Part shown: piece by piece, positions 25,973 through 26,887 of the stretch
Layout: every line of letters starts with the position of its first letter
Numbering within the stretch: the first letter of the stretch is position 1
Virus record (IMG/VR): IMGVR_UViG_3300020438_000209
Span: 1 to 28,210 of that record
DNA from: a virus
Direction: 5' to 3' (one strand)
Length of the DNA: 28,210 nucleotides
Notes under the pieces: model-generated
Told to the model about the DNA's origin: nothing
Seen by the model: the letters and a program-made list of their open reading frames with translations, nothing else
Databases searched by the model: none
Program-made: the position numbers and the translations under genes

Positions 25973-25980
25973 TATTTATA
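25973..25980 (-). promoter_or_regulatory. T4-type late promoter of the tail operon
   Basis: The minus strand reads TATAAATA, an exact match to the T4 late promoter octamer. It lies 36 bases upstream of the ATG of the giant gene, in the only gap between the tRNA cluster and the operon. Middle or early promoter boxes are not evident here. Confidence 0.78.
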
Positions 25981-26017: not shown

Positions 26018-26089
26018 CTCCCAAGGCAGGATTTGAACCTGCGACCAATCGGTTAACAGCCGATAGCTCTGCCGCTGAGCTACTTGGGA
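26018..26089 (-). tRNA. tRNA-Asn(GTT)
   Basis: A full cloverleaf of 72 bases. The acceptor stem is TCCCAAG/CTTGGGA with discriminator G, the anticodon loop is CTGTTAA with anticodon GTT, and the T arm contains GGTTCAAATCC. CCA is not encoded. It is the last RNA of the cluster, followed by a run of six T. Confidence 0.95.
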
Positions 26090-26097
26090 TTGAAATA

Positions 26098-26171
26098 CGG
26101 GACAGATGGGATTTGAACCCACGACCTCTGCCGTGACAGGGCAGCGTTCTAAACCACTGAACTACTATCCC
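26098..26171 (-). tRNA. tRNA-Asp(GTC)
   Basis: A 74-base cloverleaf. The acceptor stem is GGGATAG/CTGTCCC (one T-G pair) with discriminator G. The anticodon stem is CTGCC/GGCAG, and the loop CTGTCAC gives anticodon GTC. The T arm has GGGTTCAAATCCC. CCA is not encoded. It is separated by eight bases from tRNA-Asn. Confidence 0.95.
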
Positions 26172-26179
26172 GTAAAGGG

Positions 26180-26402
26180 GCATTTCACCCCTATGAGTTA
26201 CTTGGGTTAGAAGGCTAACTTAACCCCCATCTCACCTTTGGGTCAAGCAAGGACGAGTTCACGGGTGCGAACTGGGCTTACTGGACGTGAGAATGCTACG
26301 ATGTTATTCGCAGCAGTGTTATCTGTTTTAGCAGATGTGTTTGCTTATCCAAGCAGGTTTTCAGTCATGTTCCTTATACCCCGTCAAAACCAGGGCACCC
26401 CC
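26180..26402 (-). other. tmRNA coding piece
   Basis: It starts with G1 at 26402 and the acceptor strand GGGGGTG. The D-like segment TGGTTTTGACGGGG follows, then hairpins TGCTT/AAGCA and ATCTG/CAGAT, the tag frame (26243-26311), and an H-type pseudoknot at 26196-26226. In the pseudoknot, stem one is GGGTTA/TAACCC and stem two pairs loop AGTTA with downstream TAACT. The 3' end is probably near the GGGG/CCCC hairpin at about 26175-26193. Confidence 0.75.
26243..26311 (-). other. tmRNA proteolysis-tag reading frame
   Basis: The frame starts at the resume codon GCG (26311) and ends at TGA (26245-26243), giving 22 residues: ANNIVAFSRPVSPV, then RTR, then ELVLA. The first nine residues match the pattern of cyanobacterial tags (ANNIV-F-R). 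The end differs from the PVAA ending I recall for marine cyanobacteria but is still nonpolar (VLA). Confidence 0.8.
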
Positions 26403-26406
26403 GTGA

Positions 26407-26471
26407 TGGAGGTGAGGGGAATTGAACCCCTGTCCGAGATGTAGGTGACATCACCTATCCTCAAAAGAGGA
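26407..26471 (-). other. tmRNA acceptor piece
   Basis: It contains the hairpin ATCCTC-TTTT-GAGGAT (whose first base is the tRNA-Thr discriminator), the hairpin AGGTG-ATGT-CACCT, the T arm, the 3' acceptor strand CACCTCC and discriminator A at 26407. The 5' end should be set by cleavage after tRNA-Thr. Confidence 0.8.
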
Positions 26472-26543
26472 TGCCATCAGAGGGATTTGAACCCCCGACC
26501 TTGGCTTTACAAAAGCCCTGCACTACCACTGTGCTATGATGGC
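26472..26543 (-). tRNA. tRNA-Thr(TGT)
   Basis: A 72-base cloverleaf. The acceptor stem is GCCATCA/TGATGGC with discriminator A. The anticodon loop TTTGTAA gives anticodon TGT (Thr, ACA codons), and the T arm has GGGTTCAAATCCC. The outermost anticodon-stem pair (G27-A43) is mismatched. The first ten bases overlap the end of the HNH gene, whose TAG stop lies inside the tRNA. CCA is not encoded. Confidence 0.93.
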
Positions 26544-26887
26544 AAGAGAATTAGATCAGGCAGTTGCTTGATCCCTGCGTGAACCAATCTGTGACAATTA
26601 GCACAGAGAGGAACACACTTATCCACTTCCTCCTTTAATTTATCATATGGACCTGTTCTTGTCAACCCTGTAAGACTAACAGTTTTCTCACTGTTGTCTG
26701 CATGATGAAGATCCATAACTGGAGTAGGATACTGTATATTACAGATCACACAAGGATTTGACTTGGCTTCATCAACCAATTTCTGTCTGTTTTCAGGACC
26801 ACGTTGATTCATTCTTTTAGTTTTCCCGTGTTTTCTTGCCCATTCTCTTTGGTATTGTCTATTCTTTTCCTTGTCCTTTATGGGCAT
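26534..26887 (-). CDS. HNH endonuclease
   Basis: The 117-residue protein begins with a basic region (KDKEKNRQYQREWARKHGK), which may bind DNA. An HNH/zinc fold follows: CVIC at 46-49, LHHAD with His61-His62, then CVPLCANCHRLVH at 91-103 containing two zinc cysteines, Asn97, His99 and His103. All key residues are present, so it should be active as a metal-dependent nuclease. Such small free-standing HNH genes are common in T4-like cyanophages and often behave as homing endonucleases. The start has a strong GGAGG six bases before ATG, inside the preceding small gene with 29 bases of overlap. The stop lies inside tRNA-Thr. The location beside tRNA and tmRNA genes fits a selfish or cluster-mobilising element, which is inference. 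Confidence 0.9.
   Translation of the reverse strand: MPIKDKEKNRQYQREWARKHGKTKRMNQRGPENRQKLVDEAKSNPCVICNIQYPTPVMDLHHADNSEKTVSLTGLTRTGPYDKLKEEVDKCVPLCANCHRLVHAGIKQLPDLILLPS

Follow-up and report, generated by a model that had tools for sequence, protein, structure and literature searches.

A permuted tmRNA gene in a cyanophage lineage whose tags mostly depart from the host -VAA ending

Why would a phage carry its own tmRNA? The question is raised by a single IMG/VR virus record, analysed over its entire 28,210 bases (the window), which we take to be a cyanophage fragment because its proteins include tail fibre and collar proteins, an HNH endonuclease, a CpeT-like protein and a heme oxygenase. 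An earlier note on this DNA had proposed a phage-encoded, permuted two-piece tmRNA, an identification that is well supported by covariance models, by ARAGORN, by the layout of the gene and by the cyanophage contig that bears it. Both searches that the note suggested, Infernal and ARAGORN, recover the gene: Rfam cmscan matches cyano_tmRNA (RF01851) at 26488-26177 on the minus strand with 129.7 bits (E=3e-35; cut-off, 70) and tmRNA_permuted (RF04321) at the same locus with 73.5 bits (cut-off, 47), and ARAGORN calls a permuted tmRNA* at 26152-26496, with loose ends that reach into the flanking tRNAs. The gene occupies the minus strand, a point absent from the earlier account, and the locus comprises the following features.

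26177-26472, minus strand: whole permuted tmRNA gene (cyano_tmRNA over 26177-26488; ARAGORN tmRNA*)
26407-26472, minus strand: acceptor piece, with 5' hairpin, P2 strand, T arm, acceptor 3' strand and A73 (CCA not encoded)
26431-26415, minus strand: T arm, AGGGG-UUCAAUU-CCCCU (read from the sequence)
26414-26408, minus strand: acceptor 3' strand, CACCUCC, with A73 at 26407
26403-26406, minus strand: intervening spacer, UCAC (4 bases)
26177-26402, minus strand: coding piece, with acceptor 5' strand, D-like segment GGUUUUGACGGGG, tag frame and 3' helices
26402-26396, minus strand: acceptor 5' strand, GGGGGUG, with G1 at 26402
26243-26311, minus strand: tag frame, ANNIVAFSRPVSPVRTRELVLA, followed by UGA (in the ARAGORN call the frame opens seven codons upstream, at 26332, with an identical C-terminus)
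26177-26191, minus strand: 3' terminal hairpin, GGGGUGAAAUGCCCC (cmscan alignment)
26469-26544, minus strand: tRNA-Thr(UGU), directly upstream of the tmRNA (ARAGORN)
26097-26172, minus strand: tRNA-Asp(GUC), directly downstream of the tmRNA (ARAGORN, cmscan)
26018-26089, minus strand: tRNA-Asn(GUU) (ARAGORN, cmscan)
26637-26665, minus strand: possible sigma70-like promoter, TTGACA-17-TAAATT, upstream of the array and within the HNH frame (consensus scan only)

The gene is in permuted order, with the T arm and 3' acceptor strand (26431-26407) followed by the spacer (26406-26403) and then by the remainder from 26402 onward. Its acceptor halves form seven of seven pairs, including G3-U70 (26400 with 26410), such that the perfect pairing described in the earlier note is borne out by the coordinates, as is its four-base intervening sequence, and the RNA ends that it named (26407, at A73, and 26402, at G1) are those expected from the stem layout. 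None of 200 shuffles yields a predicted fold as stable as that of the gene (z = -3.85), the covariance model aligns across the region around the tag frame where pseudoknots would be expected, and the helices fold in predictions made without pseudoknots. The tag reading frame is present along with its UGA stop.

The tmRNA lies second in a minus-strand array that runs tRNA-Thr(UGU), tmRNA, tRNA-Asp(GUC) and tRNA-Asn(GUU); after the array comes a 5,575-amino-acid open frame. Of the 86 related phage loci, 38 have a tRNA-Thr immediately before the tmRNA. Sigma70-like consensus sites number 4 where 5.8 are expected by chance. A T4-like late-promoter motif, TATAAATA, occurs just before the 5,575-amino-acid frame (25973-25980, minus strand), this being the one found in the window against about three expected by chance. 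The tmRNA would be transcribed together with the flanking tRNAs, whose ends fall at, or a few bases from, the tmRNA pieces, so that no more than tRNA processing might be needed to free both; the tRNA-processing enzymes of the host would excise the two pieces and supply their CCA. The 5' hairpin of the acceptor piece and the 3' end of tRNA-Thr share sequence (26457-26472), so that maturation of one may disrupt the other. Charging and delivery would fall to host AlaRS and host SmpB: a search of 13 phage records, several of which are incomplete contigs, turned up neither SmpB nor ClpP, so that the SmpB used would be that of the host.

The earlier note regarded a split tmRNA on a cyanophage as rare, a view that calls for correction. 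Buchholz et al. (2022) reported tmRNA in 402 of the 18,146 phage genomes that they surveyed; the unique structures numbered 133, including 53 of the two-piece type, of which 50 are marine or aquatic (PMC9004378), and the tmRNA database holds 79 phage sequences (PMC11915505); a phage two-piece tmRNA gene is, then, an already known kind (PMC9004378). To these we add 86 cyano-type phage loci that are complete, although matches in INPHARED were limited to 18 records. The loci derive from a permuted DNA pattern, which identified 109 IMG/VR stretches and was used in place of a broader T-arm pattern, lacking the second half, that drew many unrelated contigs among the matches listed. The comparison set consists of the 86 phage loci (window included) and 106 host loci with a complete ANNIV/ANKIV-type tag, and phages with quite different tag starts lie outside it. 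The phage loci represent 66 distinct sequences in the tree, some of the 86 being near-copies or IMG/VR versions of cultured phages, and the "phage" label of the IMG/VR contigs derives from that collection and from their separate tree branch.

In INPHARED, distant nucleotide searches recovered the gene from S-CAM1, S-CAM3, S-SSM7, S-SSM6a, Sf-FS3 and Marine virus AG-345-P14 and, at low similarity, from S-CRM01. None of the INPHARED phage records that we opened has a tmRNA annotation on the gene, which is overlapped in several by small hypothetical coding sequences, and cultured cyanophage genomes (S-CAM1, S-CAM3, S-SSM7, Sf-FS3, S-CRM01) carry unannotated tmRNA genes. The S-SSM7 GenBank coding sequence SSSM7_025 ("hypothetical protein"; L117:2504-2722) terminates at the tmRNA tag stop and probably represents the tag frame, annotated as a gene in error.

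Such genes might be captured host tmRNAs that are degenerating and functionless, given that decayed second copies exist in host genomes (L362 and L363) and that phage copies score 74-171 bits with the covariance model, as opposed to 277-326 bits for the main host copies. Yet all 86 phage acceptor stems form seven of seven pairs across eight sequence forms, at positions that the search pattern left free (it fixed part of the 3' strand, UCC-A, including the U70 side), compared with two forms in the 106 hosts. The tag frame is also open in all extracted loci of this diverse lineage. The compensatory changes in the acceptor stem led us to reject pure decay, which we consider highly improbable. In the first nine tag codons, 26 independent close pairs yield 10 synonymous and no nonsynonymous differences, and the spacer measures 4 to 9 bases in phages versus 5 to 29 in hosts.

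In trees built without the C-terminal codons of the tag, one branch splits all phage from all host sequences (SH-aLRT 100; 172 rows), and the same split receives 100/100 support in 94 rows after the removal of long-branch rows. These trees are unrooted, and uptake of a cyanobacterial gene by phage is the direction of transfer expected on general grounds. Because the acceptor stems vary by compensatory changes and a fully supported branch separates phage from host, the phage RNAs look functional. That the window encodes a functional tmRNA serving in ribosome rescue is very likely, and with good, if lesser, confidence we view the gene in full as a permuted, two-piece cyanophage tmRNA, one of a distinct phage lineage of cyanobacterial tmRNA, with a tag that the phage specifies.

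Second copies of the gene in host genomes take several forms. In one genome (G027), a degenerate-looking cyano_tmRNA with several broken pairs (L361:1988-2282; 168.5 bits) lies 3 kb from the main copy. Those in Synechococcus WH7803 (L362:2009-2236) and at L363:2030-2266 keep the tag region, their tRNA-like part being missing or badly broken, and are probable pseudogenes. A Synechococcus-family genome harbors a second, small permuted tmRNA (L364:2066-2212; G046:C1 near 926930-927148), whose acceptor is GGGGGUG/CACCUCC, as in the phages, and whose tag is readable as ANNIKRTERTLAIAA; this copy is probably part of an integrated element, since it adjoins a tyrosine-integrase-like frame and an HNH-like frame.

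Phage and host tags differ at the C-terminus. All 106 host tags in the comparison set end in VAA, as do all 30 of those from hosts retrieved when 151 genomes were searched by covariance model, independently of the DNA pattern, and no main copy among these 106 and 30 hosts was found to lack the AA end, which is a trait of the host members of cyano_tmRNA and not a rule of the RNA family. The end has changed from -VAA in most phage loci: only 26 of 86 tags end in AA (STVAA, 21; QAAPVAA, 4; ELVAA, 1), and the rest terminate in ATA (20), VAV (13), ATV (10), VTA (8) or SLV (5), with single cases of AVA, VPA, ALA and VLA. The tag of the window ends in VLA. Of the distinct tags, 26 in phages and 13 in hosts, the AA end is seen in 3 and 13, respectively, and the tree requires at least 15 changes in the last three residues within phages and 0 within hosts. 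The tag of S-CRM01, found separately from the 86 loci, ends in -LVAAL. Four viral contigs (L140, L244, L261 and L277; two distinct sequences, on the phage side of the tree) have the host-like tag ANNIVAFSRQAAPVAA, as either a retained ancestral tag or a reversion. We rejected a general rule that phage tmRNAs change the tag end, because -ALAA is the end of the HTVC008M tag and of most tags encoded by permuted tmRNAs of non-cyano type in viral contigs.

Were the phage gene only to add to or replace host tmRNA, with host proteases degrading tagged proteins as they do with the host tag, phage tags should end almost as uniformly as those of hosts. They do not; the part of the tag that ClpXP reads is the part that changes. 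Although phage ends stay small and hydrophobic, more than a quarter of them still being AA, and although the standard end persists in phage tmRNAs outside the cyano type, that of HTVC008M for one, we judge simple supplementation or replacement unlikely. The type of gene is known, and the change at the tag end is the part for which a search of open-licence papers found no description, nor any comparison of phage with host tags.

The motifs GYVG, ITRDVS and GGRKHP are kept in ClpX of six of six host genomes, and we presume from the E. coli sequence that they are the loops corresponding to those that read ssrA. In E. coli, the end of the ssrA tag is read by residues of the pore-1, pore-2 and RKH loops of ClpX, and a change of the last or penultimate alanine raises the KM for ClpXP (PMC7652416); the AAV variant of the tag confers slower degradation (PMC9382460). 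Clp degrons of cyanobacteria have been little studied (PMC7966870). Because host ClpX keeps the ssrA-reading residues and such tag-end changes have these effects in E. coli, one would naturally predict that degradation is weakened or redirected. The earlier note had the phage tmRNA both rescuing ribosomes and directing degradation; rescue remains the likely role, but degradation is doubtful, since the tag of the window ends in -LVLA as opposed to -VAA in every host examined and changes to the last two alanines weaken recognition by E. coli ClpXP (PMC7652416). If the E. coli rules extend to cyanobacteria, the altered phage ends probably weaken or redirect degradation and leave rescue intact.

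Ribosomes stalled during infection would be rescued by the phage tmRNA, the tag added to the rescued chains would be specified by the phage, and its changed end (-LVLA in the window) would lower or redirect degradation by ClpXP, with rescue kept and the degron retuned. Selection for an altered degradation effect is possible, if somewhat short of an even chance. More tentative, and rather doubtful as a whole, is the proposal that cyanophages maintain a tmRNA of their own for the purpose of altering the ssrA degron, such that ribosomes are rescued and tagged chains are spared from or steered off host ClpXP, the ends -ATA, -VTA, -VLA, -ATV, -VAV, -SLV and -AAL having arisen repeatedly in one phage lineage while hosts kept -VAA.

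The main rival to degron retuning is hairpin constraint combined with relaxed selection, whereby rescue works, the degradation of tagged chains hardly matters in a short infection, and the C-terminal codons drift within the limits of an RNA hairpin. The last tag codons form such a hairpin in all tags folded, and the pN/pS of the C-terminal part is higher in phages (0.37) than in hosts (0.13), a looser constraint that drift could explain. The last three residues differ even among the closest relatives of the window, whose tags end in RTRELALA and RTRELVAA, the end flipping among VLA, ALA and VAA, and the 21 of 86 phage loci with STVAA still end as hosts do, both of which count against the degron reading. 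Drift is itself opposed by a phage pN/pS that is still well under 1 and by identical tags, such as TRELATA, that persist with synonymous changes; moreover, the TRELATA hairpin would keep a G-U pair with a penultimate alanine codon, such that the hairpin does not force threonine. In view of the hairpin at the tag end and the weaker constraint on the phage C-terminus, we consider drift within the hairpin and retuning of the degron about equally probable, neither reaching even odds. Why a phage would carry a tmRNA is now a testable question.

Among known systems, the nearest is the host cyano_tmRNA (RF01851), the permuted tmRNA of Prochlorococcus, marine Synechococcus and Cyanobium, which has in common with the phage gene the permuted order, the seven-pair acceptor with G3-U70, the T arm, the ANNIV..FSR tag start and the 3' helices. 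The phage genes differ from it in their branch apart from all hosts, in their more numerous acceptor forms and different range of spacer lengths, and in a tag end that is mostly not -VAA. The marine phages of Buchholz et al. (2022), including AG-345-P14 and Melnitz, likewise encode permuted tmRNAs (PMC9004378): AG-345-P14 is a member of the same cyano-type set, whereas Melnitz has a tmRNA of the alphaproteobacterial type, unlike that of the window. That study placed the genes on a tree, and a search of the paper found no comparison of tag peptides (PMC9004378). The tmRNA of Pelagibacter phage HTVC008M (alpha_tmRNA type) is also phage-encoded and permuted, but its tag, ANFNEYALAA, keeps the standard ending, unlike that of the window. 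Mycobacteriophages (the Bxz1 group, Wildcat and DS6A) encode tmRNAs too (PMC4131195), which represent an unrelated capture in phages of Actinobacteria, with that of DS6A retaining little beyond the tRNA-like domain.
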